Source: an uncultured Pelagibacteraceae bacterium (GTDB taxonomy: Bacteria; Pseudomonadota; Alphaproteobacteria; Pelagibacterales; AG-422-B15). Taken from it: 64,000 nucleotides of DNA. A program made the translations under genes and the position numbers. Shown in pieces: positions 52,079-61,664 of the stretch. The notes beneath the pieces are model-generated. The model made no database searches. It saw nothing but the letters and a program-made list of their open reading frames with translations, and had not been told where the DNA came from. Numbering within the stretch: the stretch's first letter is position 1; each line of letters starts with the position of its first letter. The stretch is taken from the NCBI GenBank assembly GCA_902524285.1, contig CABZCR010000005.1, positions 19,988-83,987 on the forward strand, given 5' to 3'.

Positions 52079-53038
52079 TTATTCGGCTTTTTTAGCTTCA
52101 ATTTTAGCTTTACGAGCAGCTACAATAGTTTCATAGAAACTATGGTCGACTGGCACCCAAGCTTTAACAACTCCATTTGCAACATTCTCGCTGCATTGTG
52201 GGTCATTTTCATGGATCCACTGCTTCATGCCTACCATGACCTGATGCGCTCTCACAGGCATATTAGTTGGCATTACAATCGGTCCATTTGGTATCAAAGC
52301 AGATGACCAAATCTGTTTGATGTCATCCATATTTAATAGTCCTTTATCAACCATTTTTCTCAGATTTCCAGAAGAGTAACCTTCGCTCCATTCACCAACT
52401 CCAGATACCCATGTCACACCTGCATCGATATCACCATTAAGAACTGCCAAAACGTTATTTTCATGACCACCTGAAAATTGTGTAGAGCCAAAGTATGAGT
52501 CTGGATCCATTCCTGCAGCTTTTAATTCGATTGATGGTATTAGATAACCAGATGTTGAATTAGGATCAGCCCATCCAAAAGATTTACCTTTTAAATCATC
52601 AAGTGAATTGATACCCGAGTCTGATCTTGTAACCATGACTGAATAATAGCCCATATCTCCTGTTGGCTGCATTCTGGTTAAAATTGGTACAGTAGCGGTA
52701 GGATCTTCTAGATATATACCCGCATATCCTGATGAGCCAAACCAAGCATAATCTAAGCTGCCACCAAGCATTGACTCCATTGTTCCTGCATAATCTTTAA
52801 AAGTATAAATTTTAGCTGGTACTCCATATGCAACTTCCGCATATTCCTTTAGACATGCATTATTCTTAATAATGTCTTGAGCTGATTCATCGCCTAAAAA
52901 TCCAAGTCTCATTTCAGGTTGATATTTACTCAAGTCCATTGTTGGCCCTTTATAGCCAGATACATCCCATGCGTATGCATTTGCAGACACAAATAGGAAT
53001 GAACAAGCAATAATAGACCTTACTAAATTTTTAATCAT
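52079..53038 (-). CDS. phnD: Phosphonate-binding protein PhnD
   Basis: 319 residues, signal peptide ending near residue 23 (NAYA-WDV). MRLGFLGDESAQDIIKNN, LDYAWFGSSGYAGIYL, FGWADPNSTSGYLIPSIE and FSGGHENNVLAVLNGDIDAGVTW match PhnD. Start supported by AAGGAGA 9 nt upstream. Delivers phosphonates or phosphate esters to PhnE1/E2; the exact ligand is unknown. Confidence 0.92.
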   Translation of the reverse strand: MIKNLVRSIIACSFLFVSANAYAWDVSGYKGPTMDLSKYQPEMRLGFLGDESAQDIIKNNACLKEYAEVAYGVPAKIYTFKDYAGTMESMLGGSLDYAWFGSSGYAGIYLEDPTATVPILTRMQPTGDMGYYSVMVTRSDSGINSLDDLKGKSFGWADPNSTSGYLIPSIELKAAGMDPDSYFGSTQFSGGHENNVLAVLNGDIDAGVTWVSGVGEWSEGYSSGNLRKMVDKGLLNMDDIKQIWSSALIPNGPIVMPTNMPVRAHQVMVGMKQWIHENDPQCSENVANGVVKAWVPVDHSFYETIVAARKAKIEAKKAE

Positions 53039-53090
53039 TTTTAGTATATCTCCTTGTTAGTTGTTAAGTTTTTTTTTGAAAAGGCTAACA

Positions 53091-53894
53091 TTATCCTGCC
53101 TCTGCAAACTGTTCGTCACCAAGTGAAGTTGAAGTAACTGTTGGTTCAAATGCTTCTTCAGCTTCAGCGCCATAAATTTCTCTTGCAACATCATCTTTTA
53201 AACTTGAAGGTACATCATCAAAAACAATTTCCCCAAGTCTCATGCCAATGACTCTGTCACAATAATTTTTAGCGGTATCAAGAGTATGAAGATTTGCAAG
53301 AACAGTAATCTGCTTTTCTCTATGAATATTTCTAAGTGATTCCATTACAAGTCGGGCATTAAGAGGGTCTAGCGATGCAATAGGCTCGTCGGCTAAAATC
53401 ATTTTTGGTTGCTGCATCATAGCTCTACAAATTGCAACCCTTTGTTGCTGTCCACCAGATAAAGTCTCTGCTCTTTGCAGCGCGGTTTCAGCCATTCCCA
53501 ATTTATCCAGAGCCATCAATGCATCAACGCGTTCATCTTTAGTGAAAAGTTTTAAGCTTGATCGTAAAGTGCCTTGAATATTTGATCTTCCAAGAATTAC
53601 ATTTGTTAAAACATCTAAACGGGGCACAAGATTGAATTGCTGAAATATCATGGCACAATCTTTTTGCCATGCTCGTTTGTCTTTCTTTGTTAATGAAAGT
53701 ATATTTCTGCCTTCAATAAAAATAGATCCACTAGTTGCGTCGGTTAGACGATTCATTATTCTCAGTAATGTTGACTTTCCAGCACCAGATCTGCCAATGA
53801 TACCAATCATTTCAGGTTTATTAATTTCAAATGTGACATCGTTTACTGCACGGTTGTCACCAAAATACTTATTTAATTTCTCTACTTTGATCAT
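53091..53894 (-). CDS. phnC: Phosphonate ABC transporter ATPase PhnC
   Basis: 267 residues from the ATG at 53894 ([12 protein letters not shown]); an in-frame ATG at 53918 would add eight hydrophobic residues not found in PhnC. Walker [32 protein letters not shown], signature [15 protein letters not shown] and [12 protein letters not shown] identify PhnC. First gene of phnCDE1E2 behind a Pho-like control region. An acidic C-terminal tail (EAEEAFEPT) is present. Confidence 0.93.
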
Positions 53895-53933
53895 TAGTAT
53901 GAATAAAAAGTAATACAAAAAAATTAAATCAAA

Positions 53934-53983
53934 GTTGCATTTTTATTACAGATATTTTGCAATTTATTACACTAATGTTACAG
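53934..53983 (-). promoter_or_regulatory. Pho-box-like array between phnC and the HD gene
   Basis: On the minus strand CTGTAAC (53983-53977) and GTGTAAT (53972-53966) at 11-bp spacing, then CTGTAAT (53951-53945) and ATGCAAC (53940-53934), again 11 bp apart. The array is about 40-90 bp before phnC. The divergent HD gene may share it. Confidence 0.6.
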
Positions 53984-54028
53984 CTCAAATTATTGACATT
54001 AAAAAAAATATAATTAATCATTTAAGTC

Positions 54029-54628
54029 ATGCAATTAGATAAAATCCAATCTCTAGAAAATAAATTAAATTCAGCTTCAATTATTGAGCGTACCAATGTT
54101 TTATGTGAAATTATTGATCAAAGAGGTTCGTGCAGTTTTTATGACGAAGAGATTACTCAATTACAACATGCTCTTCAGTGCGCAACCTTAGCTAAAGAAA
54201 ATAATGAAAGTGATAAATTTATTACTGCTTCATTATTTCACGATTTAGGGCATATGTTGACTGGCGAAGATGTAAATAGCCATGATTTTTTAAACAATGA
54301 CAAGTATCATGAAAACGTTGCTGCATCTTTTTTATCCAAGTATTTCCCTGAAGAAGTTACTTATCCAATTAAAATGCACGTTATTGCAAAGAGATATCTA
54401 TGTTCCGTTCAATCAGATTATTATGACGGTCTTTCAGATGGCTCCAAAAGAAGTTTTAAACTTCAAGGCGGATATTTAAACAAAGATGCTATTCGAAAAC
54501 TGGAAAGTCATAAATATTTTGAAGATGCAGTAAGACTTCGAAAGTATGATGACAATGCAAAAATTAGGGGAAAGAAAACTGAAGCTATTTCATTCTTTCA
54601 TCCTTTTATTAAAAAGTCCTATATTTGA
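54029..54628 (+). CDS. phnZ: PhnZ-like HD-domain phosphonate oxygenase
   Basis: 199 residues. Predicted iron ligands H47, H71-D72 (SLFHDLGH), H94 (KYHENVA), H117 (IKMHVIAKRYLC) and D174 lie at nearly the same spacings as H34, H58-D59, H80, H104 and D161 of characterised PhnZ. The FYDEEITQLQHALQCA stretch contains the counterpart of the gating Tyr/Glu pair. PhnZ cleaves hydroxy-aminoethylphosphonate to glycine and phosphate and needs the dioxygenase PhnY, which I do not see in this window. Divergent from phnC. Confidence 0.82.
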   Translation: MQLDKIQSLENKLNSASIIERTNVLCEIIDQRGSCSFYDEEITQLQHALQCATLAKENNESDKFITASLFHDLGHMLTGEDVNSHDFLNNDKYHENVAASFLSKYFPEEVTYPIKMHVIAKRYLCSVQSDYYDGLSDGSKRSFKLQGGYLNKDAIRKLESHKYFEDAVRLRKYDDNAKIRGKKTEAISFFHPFIKKSYI

Positions 54629-55140
54629 ACTTTACTAAAATAAAGCTTTCGAAAATTGTTAAAGCAAAAAAAAATCTTGGTAATTTGGTTATATCCAGTT
54701 GTCCAGGTATCAGTAATTCTAGATTTGATAAATTTACTTATAAAAAAGATTTAACCATTATCATCGACTTAAATATATCACTCGTTGTTTCATTGATAGA
54801 ACTTAATGAAATTAGAAATTTTGAAATTAATCAGTTCCATAAAGATCTAGAGGAGAAGAATGTTAGGGCCTACAGCATGCCCATAAAAAACTATGGTATT
54901 CCAGCTCAGATTAAAAAAAATGAATATAGTCAAATTATCAGAGATTGTGTTACTCAGTTAGAACTCAATAAAAATGTTTACCTGCATTGTTATGCTGGAT
55001 TAGGTAGATCTGGAATGTTTGCTTCACTTATTTTGAAGGCACTAGGACTAGATTCAAAGCAATGCATAAATCATGTAAGGAATTGCCGGCCAGGTACAAT
55101 TGAAACAGAGGAACAAGAAAAATTTGTAATCAACTTTTAA
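54625..55140 (+). CDS. Dual-specificity / tyrosine phosphatase-like protein
   Basis: 171 residues with TTG start overlapping the upstream TGA. Active-site loop HCYAGLGRSG (C122-x5-R128), the CX5R motif of cysteine phosphatases, preceded by the YSMPIKNYGIP general-acid region. DSP-like proteins of this kind are often in phn loci next to PhnZ-type genes. Convergent with phnX, overlapping it by 4 bp. Substrate unknown. Confidence 0.75.
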   Translation: MNFTKIKLSKIVKAKKNLGNLVISSCPGISNSRFDKFTYKKDLTIIIDLNISLVVSLIELNEIRNFEINQFHKDLEEKNVRAYSMPIKNYGIPAQIKKNEYSQIIRDCVTQLELNKNVYLHCYAGLGRSGMFASLILKALGLDSKQCINHVRNCRPGTIETEEQEKFVINF

Positions 55141-55973
55141 GGCCCTTCACCACGTGAAAGCCTTTTGTTAATATCATCAATAACGGCCTCGATATCTGCA
55201 ATAGTTTCTATTACGTAATGCGCACCTGCTTTATAAAGCAGATCTTTTGCATATCCTTGTTTCATATCAATTTCTTCTTTACTCAGTTCATCAGCTTCTT
55301 CTAAGGAATTTATATTCATATAATTCGAATATCGCGTTACACCAACACCCCAACAACCAGCATTAATTGCTTCTCCAATTCCTGAAACAGTATCATCAAC
55401 TTTTATAACTGATTGAATGGATTCTATATTCATTATATCTAAATTTTTATATAACATGTGGGGAAGGGGCCGAACGCCATTTTTAACATCATCACCTGCA
55501 ACTGACGCATCAGGGACATATCCCTGTTTTGCTGATTCTTCCTCTAAAATATTAACCATTGACCGCACAAAACCAGTTGTGCAACCAACTTTTATACCGC
55601 TATTTTGAACCCGTTTAATTACTTCTGCTGTTCCGGGTAATAATTTTGAGTATTGTTTTAAGCATTTAAGCTGCAGTGGAACAAAATCTGCGTACATATT
55701 TTCAACATCAGACATTTGTGGGTCTTTACCATGTACTATGTTCCAGCGCTTTCTTATTTCAGCGTTCTCTGTGAGTGCTTTTATATGTAAATCTTTTCGT
55801 AAACCCATGGGTTCTCTTGCCTCCTCCATGGAGATTACAACCTTTTGTTTCTTAAAAACCTCAACAAACACTATAGTTGGAGCAATCACGTATGCGTCAG
55901 CAGTAGTTCCACTCCAGTCTAATACCAAACCTTTTATCTCTCCTTTATATCTATTTTCTGACAAATATTTCAA
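55137..55973 (-). CDS. phnX: Phosphonoacetaldehyde hydrolase PhnX
   Basis: 278 residues, HAD superfamily. Nucleophile D19 in LDWSGTTAD, Schiff-base lysine K60 in EAREPMGLRKDLHIKAL, GCTTGFVRSM and VKVDDTVSGIGEAINAGCWGVGV are the PhnX motifs. It hydrolyses phosphonoacetaldehyde, the product of 2-aminoethylphosphonate transamination by PhnW. No PhnW or PalA-type partner is in the window. Its start is at a MKYLSENRYKGEIKGLVLDW N-terminus. Confidence 0.92.
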   Translation of the reverse strand: MKYLSENRYKGEIKGLVLDWSGTTADAYVIAPTIVFVEVFKKQKVVISMEEAREPMGLRKDLHIKALTENAEIRKRWNIVHGKDPQMSDVENMYADFVPLQLKCLKQYSKLLPGTAEVIKRVQNSGIKVGCTTGFVRSMVNILEEESAKQGYVPDASVAGDDVKNGVRPLPHMLYKNLDIMNIESIQSVIKVDDTVSGIGEAINAGCWGVGVTRYSNYMNINSLEEADELSKEEIDMKQGYAKDLLYKAGAHYVIETIADIEAVIDDINKRLSRGEGP

Positions 55974-57333: not shown

Positions 57334-57696
57334 ATGAGCATTTTAGCAAATCCTCTTCGACTAATCTTCTTTTTTTATTTATTTTATCTTTATTACTCAT
57401 ATGTGCGACCTGTGCCTTCTGACTCTACAGTAAGAGAGGTAGCAAATTTAATTACTGATTATGGAATACACTTTATCTCATTTTTCATACTTGGCGCCTT
57501 GGCACAATTGGCTAATAATAAAAACAATGATTTTGTATTTGGTATCAGCTTAGCCCTGATCACAAGTGTTTTTATTGAGTTTATACATTTTTTTATACCG
57601 TTTCGTGATTTTGAAATAATGGAAGGTTTTGCAAATATAGTTGGTTGTGTATCAGCTATTTATCTAATAAGTTATTTAAGAAAAAAAAATGAGTAA
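57334..57696 (+). CDS. VanZ-like membrane protein
   Basis: 120 residues with four helices. HFISFFILGALAQLA and FIEFIHFFIPFRDFEIMEGFANIVGC match the VanZ-like pattern (E-x-x-Q/H...R-x-x-x-x-x-D-x-x-x-N). Overlaps the next gene by 8 bp. Function of such single-domain proteins is not known. Confidence 0.7.
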   Translation: MSILANPLRLIFFFYLFYLYYSYVRPVPSDSTVREVANLITDYGIHFISFFILGALAQLANNKNNDFVFGISLALITSVFIEFIHFFIPFRDFEIMEGFANIVGCVSAIYLISYLRKKNE

Positions 57697-58057
57697 ACTT
57701 TTAATTAGAAATATATGTCAACCACCGGATAGCAATCCTTACGGTACAGCTCATGGAGCTTGGATCGTGAAGCAAATGGCCCATGGAGGCATTTATATGA
57801 CTCAGCTTGTTTCAAAAGGAAATGCCGTATTAGTGGAATCTAAAGTTAAATATAAAAATCCAATGCATGTTGGTAAATTCATCAATGTTTACGGATCAAT
57901 TGTATCTGTAAAGCAGTCGAAAATGATATTCAAAATTACCGCAATGCGTTCTGAAATGAATCAAAAGGAAGTTGAAGTGGCGGTAGGGGAGTTTTCCTAC
58001 GTTGCTATCAATGACAAAAATAAAACAAGAAAATTTAAACCAAATTTAAAGATCTAA
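57689..58057 (+). CDS. Acyl-CoA thioesterase, hotdog fold (YciA-like)
   Basis: 122 residues. PPDSNPYGTAHGAWIVKQMAHGGI corresponds to the N-P-x-G-x-x-x-G-G-W motif of YciA/ACOT proteins, followed by VESKVKYKNPMHVGKFINVYGSIVSV. Predicted to hydrolyse acyl-CoA esters in the cytoplasm. The central Asp of the usual MD-A motif is replaced here by AH, which should be checked. Confidence 0.78.
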   Translation: MSKLLIRNICQPPDSNPYGTAHGAWIVKQMAHGGIYMTQLVSKGNAVLVESKVKYKNPMHVGKFINVYGSIVSVKQSKMIFKITAMRSEMNQKEVEVAVGEFSYVAINDKNKTRKFKPNLKI

Positions 58058-58061
58058 AAAA

Positions 58062-58085
58062 AAGCCCCCAAACTAATGGGGGCTT
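58062..58085 (-). terminator. Intrinsic terminator for the minus-strand mini-gene
   Basis: Perfect 8-bp GC-rich stem AAGCCCCC / GGGGGCTT with an 8-nt loop. On the minus strand it is followed by eight T residues (58056-58063), a textbook terminator. On the plus strand no T run follows, so it serves the small ORF at 58093-58191, although it may also stabilise the thioesterase message. Confidence 0.85.
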
Positions 58086-58092
58086 AATGTAG

Positions 58093-58191
58093 TTAAAACG
58101 GAGCTCCACTCAAAAAGTGGAGGTTTCCACATCTACAATCACATGGAATTTCACTACTCGAGCAAAGCTCCTCTATACTACCTATAGACAT
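58093..58191 (-). CDS. 32-residue cysteine-containing peptide with strong expression signals
   Basis: Minus-strand ATG at 58191 with a perfect AGGAGG (58203-58198) 6 nt upstream; the ORF runs 32 codons to a TAA at 58095-58093 and is followed 8 bp later by an intrinsic terminator. The product begins MSIGSIEELC and contains C10, C17, C19 and C21, the last three as C-D-C-R-C, and ends SGAPF. The RNA can form a hairpin CTCCACT / AGTGGAG inside the ORF, and ACCTCC inside it can instead pair with the SD. It may be a metal-binding or modified peptide, or a regulatory RNA with a coding part. No known family is recognised. Confidence 0.5.
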   Translation of the reverse strand: MSIGSIEELCSSSEIPCDCRCGNLHFLSGAPF

Positions 58192-58276
58192 AGACCACCT
58201 CCTTTCATTAAATATGGTTAAAACTGTATTAGTATATATAATTTACTGGATTCTTATTTCAATCAAGGAGTTTATT

Positions 58277-58714
58277 ATGCAACCCGAATTAATTTTTGAG
58301 CCAGTCATCAATATGCTGTGGCTTTCTTTGGCTGTTTTTGCCTTTGGGACAGTACTTAGACTAAAGGCCATTGTCATCGATAAGAAGAATACAGAAGATG
58401 ATTTTAAAATACCCACATTTGAAAACGGCAGCGAATTAATTCAAAATAGTCAGCGAAATTTGACAAATTTGTTCGAATTTCCAATCTTCTTTTACGCTGT
58501 TTGCATTATGATTTATGTAACGGGAACAGTTGATGAGTATTTTATGTTGTTAGCAACATGGTTCTTTTGGTTAAGAGTTCTACACTCAATCGTTCATATA
58601 TTTTACAATAAAATCATACCTGGTGTTGCCTTACCAGTTAGAACGCTATTTTGGTTACCGTCTACGATTATCCTAGCATGGATGGCTTATCGAGCCTGCT
58701 CTTTAATGATCTGA
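58277..58714 (+). CDS. MAPEG family membrane protein (first of two)
   Basis: 145 residues from the ATG at 58277, selected because AAGGAG stands 7 nt before it; the frame is open from 58214. Four helices; the RNLTNLFEFPIFFYAV and RVLHSIVHIFYN blocks are the MAPEG signature (E-x-P-x...R-x-x-H-S-x-x-H). The family includes glutathione-dependent enzymes of eicosanoid metabolism; bacterial members are mostly uncharacterised. Stop overlaps the next ATG (TGATG). Confidence 0.82.
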   Translation: MQPELIFEPVINMLWLSLAVFAFGTVLRLKAIVIDKKNTEDDFKIPTFENGSELIQNSQRNLTNLFEFPIFFYAVCIMIYVTGTVDEYFMLLATWFFWLRVLHSIVHIFYNKIIPGVALPVRTLFWLPSTIILAWMAYRACSLMI

Positions 58715-59574: not shown

Positions 59575-60285
59575 ATGACAAATTTTGGCTATATTCCTGT
59601 ATATGCGCTTAGATTCATGATTGCATATTTTATTGTAACGAATGCCGCGGCTATGATTTTATTTCCTGGAGGAACTTTATTTAATCCAGATTTAAATTCT
59701 TACTCTTTTAGTGGAAATTTTTTTAGTGACTTGGGAATCACATTTACTCGCGATGGCACTCAGAACTTTCTCTCAAGCTTTTTATTTAACAGCTCTTTGT
59801 TGATAATGGGACTATGCGCTGTCTCTCACGTATTTGTACCAAATTTATTTAGAGAGAATAAGAAAACTTATGTGATTTCAGTCATTGCATCAATTTTATT
59901 AGTTATTTCTGGAATATCTTTCATTGGCGTTGGTTTAACACCAGCTGATATTTATTTTGAAGAGCATGTTTGGTTTGTTATTTTAGCTTTTAACGCTCAA
60001 ACTGTTGGTATTTTTTTTATGACAATCGCATTTTTACTGAGCAAAATAAGTAATAGATATACTATTGTTGCTTTTATCTATTTTATAAATGTCGCTCTTT
60101 ATACAATCTTTGAAACAAGTGAGCCTCCACCTGACTTCAATCCATTTGAATTGGAAAATGTTGAAGAGTTCATAGATTACAACCGATTCACGATATCAGT
60201 TGTTTGGCAAAAAATAATTACAGTTATTTCTATGATCAGTATTCTGATCTTTACATTTGGTTACAAGAAACTTTTAAATGACTAG
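59575..60285 (+). CDS. DUF998-like membrane protein, tandem copy 1
   Basis: 236 residues, six to seven helices. The loop after helix 1 carries YSFSGNFFSDLGITFTRDGTQNFLSSFLFN, matching the NFxSDLG motif of DUF998-like proteins; GVGLTPADIYFEEHVWFVI is the second conserved block. First of three paralogues overlapping end to start (8 bp). Confidence 0.72.
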   Translation: MTNFGYIPVYALRFMIAYFIVTNAAAMILFPGGTLFNPDLNSYSFSGNFFSDLGITFTRDGTQNFLSSFLFNSSLLIMGLCAVSHVFVPNLFRENKKTYVISVIASILLVISGISFIGVGLTPADIYFEEHVWFVILAFNAQTVGIFFMTIAFLLSKISNRYTIVAFIYFINVALYTIFETSEPPPDFNPFELENVEEFIDYNRFTISVVWQKIITVISMISILIFTFGYKKLLND

Positions 60286-60994
60286 ATTCTGGTGTGTACA
60301 TATCCCAAGAATTGCATCTGCTTATTATATTTTTGCGGTAATCATTGCTATGCTTCTATACCCTGGCGGTAATCATATAGAACTAGATCAAGTAGGTTAT
60401 TCATTTCATAAAAATTTTCTTAGTGAGCTTGGTTTTCATAAAACAATGTCTGGAGATTTAAATTTTTTTTCATCGTTTTTCTGGAATACTGCAATGTACA
60501 TGCTCTTATTACAAGGCATAGCTTTTTTGTTTATTCCGAGTTTATTTAGGGTAAATCGTTACTCGTTTATATTTGCTTGTTTAGGAACATTATTTATGTT
60601 TCCGGCTTGTGTTTTTTTTGTAGGAGTTGCCTTAACACCAGGTGATATTTACTTTGATGCGCATCTATTTACTACAACTATGGCATTTAATTTATACTCT
60701 GTAGCAATTCTCTTTTATGTTCTTGCTTTTTTATTTAGTCCTTTATCAAACTATTATGCGTCAGGAGGCGTGCTACTTTTTATTGCAGTAGGAGTTTATG
60801 CCTATTATCTTGGTGACTTTCAACCGATTGATGCAATAAATGACCGTGTTCGTTTTTTAGAAACGTACACAATGGATTTCTTGATATTTAATGTAGTGTT
60901 ACAGAAGGTGATGATTATTCTAATGATTACAACAATTATCATGTTTACGTTTGGCCTCGATAAGTTAATAGGAAAAAAAAATGCAAATGACTAA
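60278..60994 (+). CDS. DUF998-like membrane protein, tandem copy 2
   Basis: 238 residues, same helix layout as copy 1. Conserved YSFHKNFLSELGFHKTMSGDLNFFSSFFWN and GVALTPGDIYFDAHLFTTTMAFN. Overlaps both neighbours (8 and 14 bp). Function unknown. Confidence 0.72.
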   Translation: MTRFWCVHIPRIASAYYIFAVIIAMLLYPGGNHIELDQVGYSFHKNFLSELGFHKTMSGDLNFFSSFFWNTAMYMLLLQGIAFLFIPSLFRVNRYSFIFACLGTLFMFPACVFFVGVALTPGDIYFDAHLFTTTMAFNLYSVAILFYVLAFLFSPLSNYYASGGVLLFIAVGVYAYYLGDFQPIDAINDRVRFLETYTMDFLIFNVVLQKVMIILMITTIIMFTFGLDKLIGKKNAND

Positions 60995-61664
60995 ATTTTG
61001 GACAGTCTATATCATTCGATTTGTATCAATTTTTTTTGTTGTCTCAGTAATTATTGCTTCATATTTTTTTCCAGGAGGAAACATACATAATCCTGATCAA
61101 ATTGGTTATTCATTTAGTCATAATTTTTTAAGTGAACTGGGTGGGTATATTACATTTGCGGGAGATATTAACAGTATTTCATCATTTTTTTTTAACTCTG
61201 CACTTTTTTGTTTTTTATTGGTCGGAATATCAAGTTTTTTCATTCCATCATTATTTACAGAAAATAAAGTTTCGTATTTTTGTGCGTGCATAGCAGCAGT
61301 ACTTTTTTTCATTGGAATGGTATTTTTTGCTGGAGTAGCCCTAACGCCGCACGATTTATATAGAGATGCACATGTATTTTTTGCAATAAATGCATTTCGT
61401 TGGTTAGTACCAGCATCATTATTCTTTGTAATAGCCTTTTTTCTAAGTAATGCGGACAATAAGTATACTGTTGTGAATATTATTTTTCTTATATCAACCG
61501 TAATCTATGTAATTTATCAAATATACTCTGGTGATCCAAGATTGAATGAAGAACTATTAGTGCAAAATGTATTAATGCAAAAATCTATAGCAATAATCCA
61601 TATTATCAGTATTTTTTCTCTTACCTTCTGCTTCAACAGCCAAATAAAGAATAAAAATTTATAA
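60981..61664 (+). CDS. DUF998-like membrane protein, tandem copy 3
   Basis: 227 residues, same layout: YSFSHNFLSELGGYITFAGDINSISSFFFN and GVALTPHDLYRDAHVFFAINAF. Ends by overlapping the convergent amidase gene by 6 bp. All three copies share the acidic D/E-L-G and D-x-Y-x-D/E-x-H positions, suggesting a common membrane active or binding site. Confidence 0.72.
   Translation: MQMTKFWTVYIIRFVSIFFVVSVIIASYFFPGGNIHNPDQIGYSFSHNFLSELGGYITFAGDINSISSFFFNSALFCFLLVGISSFFIPSLFTENKVSYFCACIAAVLFFIGMVFFAGVALTPHDLYRDAHVFFAINAFRWLVPASLFFVIAFFLSNADNKYTVVNIIFLISTVIYVIYQIYSGDPRLNEELLVQNVLMQKSIAIIHIISIFSLTFCFNSQIKNKNL

Follow-up and report, generated by a model that had tools for sequence, protein, structure and literature searches.

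A conserved mini-gene of one SAR11 family: a short reading frame inside an RNA hairpin, preceded by a Shine-Dalgarno sequence complementary to the whole 16S rRNA tail

The minus-strand mini-gene described here is a real conserved feature and not a chance arrangement of signals, because 40 of the 53 genomes of one SAR11 family have the whole unit in conserved form. Three constraints act on one short sequence, and comparison of the copies gives the conservation, the pairing within the RNA, the complementarity to the 16S rRNA tail and the unbroken reading frame. We propose that the unit could be a dual-function small RNA, both coding and structured, with its own translation opening and closing the structure. 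From the sequence comparison we give this reading about even chances. The coordinates within the window, i.e. the whole 64,000-nucleotide stretch of DNA that was analysed, are collected in Table 1.

Table 1. Parts of the mini-gene and its adjoining genes, in coordinates of the window.
Feature	Position	Strand	Remark
AGGAGG core of the Shine-Dalgarno sequence (SD)	58203-58198	minus	6-nt spacer to the ATG
Extended SD, GAAAGGAGGTGGTC	58206-58193	minus	complements the single-stranded 3' tail of 16S rRNA; 16 contiguous pairs if the two bases that follow are included
ORF, MSIGSIEELCSSSEIPCDCRCGNLHFLSGAPF, 32 aa and TAA	58093..58191	minus	ATG 58191-58189; TAA 58095-58093; frame and TAA kept in all copies
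Hairpin 5' arm, GGAGC and variable arm	58129..58171	minus	sequence drifts, pairing with the 3' arm kept
Hairpin 3' arm, GGAAACCTCCACTTTTTGAGTGGAGCTCC	58100..58128	minus	near-invariant; encodes GNLHFLSGAP; own hairpin when alone
Outer stem, 5' strand GUAGU	58177..58181	minus	partner is 58093-58089
Outer stem, 3' strand ACUAC	58089..58093	minus	shares the final base of the TAA
Intrinsic terminator	58056..58085	minus	stem-loop 58085-58062, then T run
Putative sigma-70-like promoter	58235..58262	minus	TTGAAA 58262-58257, 16-nt spacer, TATATA 58240-58235; conserved as CTTGnTTGAnnnnAGAATCnnnnnnATTATAT in all lineages
4HBT thioesterase gene	57689-58057	plus	convergent to the mini-gene
MAPEG gene	58277-58714	plus	divergent from the mini-gene

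An earlier note on this DNA had described the SD, the ATG, a 32-codon ORF and an intrinsic terminator on the minus strand, opposite to both neighbouring genes, and all of these are where it had placed them. It had called them a complete transcription and translation unit, which agrees with the conservation of frame, SD, stop and terminator in the 40 genomes. The terminator has nine pairs, six of them G-C, and begins 7 nt past the stop codon; its stem carries compensatory changes between lineages, from G-C to A-U and from C-G to U-A or the reverse. In two genomes (L031 and L070) the terminator loop reads as the reverse complement of the loop in close relatives (CATTAACTTG versus CAAGTTAATG), as though an inversion had flipped the short stem-loop. 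The putative promoter of the mini-gene did not score in a simple promoter scan. Read on the plus strand, the conserved AT box is TATAAT (58237-58242) and possibly the -10 element of the divergent MAPEG gene. The block 58237-58270 then reads TATAAT and GATTCTnnnnTCAAnCAAGGAG, and may represent a promoter shared in both directions together with the ribosome-binding site of the MAPEG gene.

The window belongs to SAR11 (Pelagibacterales), and related records, AG-422-B15 among them, go under Pelagibacteraceae or Candidatus Pelagibacterales bacteria. All four genera of the family are represented among the 40 genomes, in which the unit was recognized as DNA or as peptide. Searching a sample of 397 SAR11 genomes with a peptide profile returned these 40 only and none of the 344 genomes outside the family. 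A scan of 84,980 prokaryote species for the pattern GNLHFxSGAP, covering every possible coding with x as a codon with T in the middle, found 39 places, all in SAR11 records of the same kind. The mini-gene was absent from the viral contigs and phages searched, and there is no second copy in the genome of the window. Matches of a covariance model outside the family were not counted; their printed alignments were carried mostly by the terminator. Within the genomes covered the mini-gene is restricted to one SAR11 family, and the comparison rests on a small number of independent lineages, about four. Both the thioesterase and the MAPEG gene occur in the same 40 family genomes and are missing from the same 13 that are without the unit, many of which are incomplete.

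In frame 0 no copy contains an internal stop, and in frames +1 and +2 there are one to five. The 5' arm lies at a constant distance from the ATG and the TAA at a constant distance from the 3' arm; between the arms, the copies differ in length by exactly 3, and the same TAA is preceded by six different codons. If the test is matched for the type of change, 17 of 38 changes in frame 0 are synonymous compared to 10.3 expected (P=0.012; P=0.058 with the other choice of pairs), and no excess occurs in frames 1 and 2. A pooled Fisher test of synonymous and nonsynonymous changes (P=1e-4) overstates the coding signal because the type of change is ignored. The chance of a stop-free variable arm is approximately 0.28-0.49 per lineage. 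RNA constraints alone could explain the invariant end of the ORF, because its degenerate third positions are mostly fixed as well. We regard the coding evidence for frame 0, taken from these comparisons, as moderate, and the ORF is quite probably translated.

Thirteen distinct peptides were read, ranging from MSIGSIEELCSSSEIPCDCRCGNLHFLSGAPF in the group of the window to, e.g., MSISSIMEPAILIEGNQNHVDIGNLHFMSGAPN in genus g2, with a length of 32-33 residues across the family. Conserved are M1, S2, S5 and E8 at the beginning and G-N-L-H-F and S-G-A-P at the end (MS..S..E and GNLHFxSGAP); the middle is poorly conserved. The 32 codons in the window include Cys at positions 10, 17, 19 and 21, and the earlier note had seen in the Cys-x-Cys-x-Cys core a candidate metal-binding or modified peptide. 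This has to be abandoned, as the cysteines are not conserved among relatives: C17, C19 and C21 vary within the genus of the window, where Cys21 is replaced by Tyr in many genomes, the genome G020 retains Cys10 alone, and Cys is absent altogether from the peptides of genera g2 and g4. Of the two signs to be sought in relatives according to that note, conserved cysteines are missing and a synonymous excess is found, modest and in frame 0 only. A maturation enzyme, which it had not recognized nearby either, does not occur in the conserved neighbourhood. No significant profile match of the peptide was obtained in Pfam, NCBIfam or PDB. We also rejected a type I toxin mRNA, as the peptides, judged by reading the sequences, are without a long hydrophobic stretch.

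A further constraint arises from the secondary structure of the RNA. The ORF alone folds 2.6 to 5.9 standard deviations below dinucleotide shuffles in all 13 sequences, and in 11 out of 11 the fold of the minus strand is better than that of the plus strand. We kept the conserved GGAGC and the 3' arm unchanged and shuffled the 5' arm: in every one of 11 sequences the real 5' arm gave better pairing than at least 99.3% of the nucleotide-shuffled and at least 98.2% of the codon-shuffled arms. Compared pair by pair, the 5' arm changes between lineages and its pairing is preserved: position 16 of the 3' arm forms U-A in g1 and g3, G-C in g4 and A-U in g2, position 9 forms C-G or U-A, and at positions 21-23 G.U is swapped for G-C or A-U. 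The sole varying residue in the conserved end of the peptide (L/V/M) changes jointly with its pairing partner. The RNAalifold consensus on a MAFFT alignment gives little covariation (-1.09) because the variable arm misaligns in MAFFT; the claim of pairing rests on the folds of single sequences with the 3' arm fixed. Judged from these folds, the long hairpin covering the ORF, which the earlier note missed, is under selection. That note had set a conserved RNA structure with frame-breaking changes against a peptide; the structure is indeed conserved, and frame-breaking changes were not seen in any copy, so that its refuting condition gives a mixed outcome.

The 3' arm can also fold on itself, with -10.7 to -14.0 kcal/mol, and this hairpin is identical in all lineages tested. 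If two alternative folds had the 3' arm in common, this would account for its being fixed while the 5' arm drifts. A constraint on the peptide would also explain a fixed 3' arm, but not its fixed degenerate third positions. When an elongating ribosome was simulated on the 5' arm, the 3' arm became free in four of six sequences; in the remaining two, L061 and L066, it is paired to the SD. These results bear on the idea of a plain small-protein gene, with the peptide and its GNLHFxSGAP end as the sole functional product and the hairpin as a side effect of the conserved ends. Conservation of the frame and of the peptide end as well as the strong SD are in agreement with it. We consider it unlikely, since the pairing of the variable 5' arm surpasses the shuffles, codon shuffles included, and since the L/V/M residue covaries with its partner.

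The SD itself goes far beyond what translation of other genes in the window makes use of. This genome has GGTTGGATCACCTCCTTTCT as the 3' end of its 16S rRNA (read in L116), and the duplex of the SD with this tail comprises 16 contiguous pairs (14 Watson-Crick and 2 G.U) with -26.9 kcal/mol. Among 67 other genes of the window the runs are 4 to 8 pairs long, with a median of -3.9 and a best value of -13.5 kcal/mol. The perfect SD of the earlier note is present and was understated, as it complements the whole 16S tail. A single occurrence of GAAAGGAGGTGRTC followed by ATG within 1-6 bases was found in each of the 40 genomes with the unit; the other genomes of the 397 have none. Where the SD varies (GATC for GGTC, TCC for TCT) pairing with the tail is preserved.

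This abundance of tail pairs could be the function as such. The unit would then be a ribosome-directed regulatory RNA, whose 5' region pairs with the whole anti-SD tail and so holds or counts free 30S subunits, with the ORF being a by-product or part of the trap. The number of tail pairs, far above that of the other genes in the window, its uniqueness among the SAR11 genomes, and the fact that both variable positions remain pairable argue for it. We think it improbable all the same, as the 6-nt spacer to the AUG, the conservation of frame and stop, and the excess of synonymous changes in frame 0 alone point to real translation, and as the strong SD may simply offset the downstream hairpin. A new kind of ribosome-directed RNA, which docks the 30S subunit by the entire anti-SD tail, flips a two-state hairpin by translation of its tiny ORF, and in this way reports or buffers free ribosomes, has in our estimate little probability. 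The same small weight is given to a noncoding small RNA with an accidental ORF. The strong structure, the poorly conserved middle of the peptide and a probability of lacking stops that is not small would fit such an RNA; the SD, the AUG, length changes by 3 nt only, the in-frame TAA in varied context and the frame-specific excess of synonymous changes would not.

At all 15 loci with flanks read, the unit lies between the thioesterase on one side and MAPEG genes on the other. The conserved neighbours encode VanZ-like, 4HBT thioesterase, MAPEG, Mpo1-like, DUF998, SDR and PNPOx proteins, and the order SDR-VanZ-thioesterase is kept in most relatives. A control of the minus-strand SDR and PNPOx genes, about 750 bp downstream across the opposite-strand VanZ and thioesterase genes, by read-through of the terminator can hardly be correct: leader ORF, hairpin and terminator do follow each other in the order of an attenuator, and the gene order is conserved, but no same-strand gene occurs for 750 bp, in the folds the C-run of the terminator arm has no antiterminator partner, and in L061 the SDR is missing and the unit intact.

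Several observations concern the neighbourhood itself. In G020 a gene for 455 amino acids (L069, 3265-4629) replaces one MAPEG gene and is unmatched among the proteins of the window. The VanZ-like gene (57334-57696) is 70% identical to its counterpart in L073 (4099-4458), though the adjoining thioesterase is 99% identical, which is a hint of local allele exchange. Three tandem, related membrane genes are found at 59575-61664, the first of them matching DUF998; their copy number varies by genus, with two in g2 and g4 and one in G020. Proteins encoded at approximately 52082-55973, with counterparts at L063 7683-10001 and L065 3-2518 (HD-like, phosphatase, PhnX-like HAD and others), share 94-99.6% identity with those of other genera (G050 of g4, G046 of g2), and adjoining genes are only 57-68% identical. 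This sharp boundary of identity left of the mini-gene locus suggests a recent transfer between genera.

With regard to the mechanism of the proposed dual-function RNA, we infer transcription, translation, a ribosome-driven refolding and any downstream effect as follows. A stand-alone gene would give rise to an RNA of about 165 nt, small and structured, serving both as messenger and as structure. The 30S subunit would dock via an SD able to pair with the entire single-stranded 16S tail and start at the AUG, and the peptide of 32-33 residues would be read through the long hairpin, which begins about 20 nt past the AUG. Translation would end at the stop codon just past the hairpin and just ahead of the terminator. 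In the absence of a ribosome the long hairpin would shut in the ORF; once a ribosome had entered the 5' arm, the 3' arm would be freed and could fold on itself.

Dual-function small RNAs of bacteria include SR1/SR1P and RNAIII. A further one is SgrS/SgrT (PMC4021124). The mini-gene shares with this kind a terminator of its own, the stable structure and the short ORF with an SD, and would share the short independent transcript. It differs in that the hairpin covers the ORF itself rather than lying beside it, and in the complementarity of its SD to the whole 16S tail. By analogy the mini-gene seems to work like a dual-function small RNA, which is the nearest kind; we do not claim membership. In length (about 30 codons, a size dropped by annotation cut-offs) it resembles unannotated bacterial small ORFs, but it differs from these by selection on pairing within the ORF. 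No Rfam family reaches its gathering cut-off in the window, and the best sub-threshold matches at the locus remain far below theirs. Meyer et al. 2009 found conserved structured RNAs in intergenic gaps of SAR11 starting from HTCC1062, some of them possibly separate transcripts (PMC2704228). Their abstract and section on further motifs describe no motif with an ORF or with the gene context of the mini-gene. The searches of SAR11 genomes outside the family did not turn up the mini-gene.

The mini-gene represents a clear case of joint constraints by a peptide, an RNA structure and the 16S tail on one short sequence. It also offers a neat test of the purpose of a far-too-strong Shine-Dalgarno sequence. 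SAR11 genomes contain few transcriptional regulators and little noncoding DNA, and a 165-nt unit that is kept across four genera should therefore matter to the cell.
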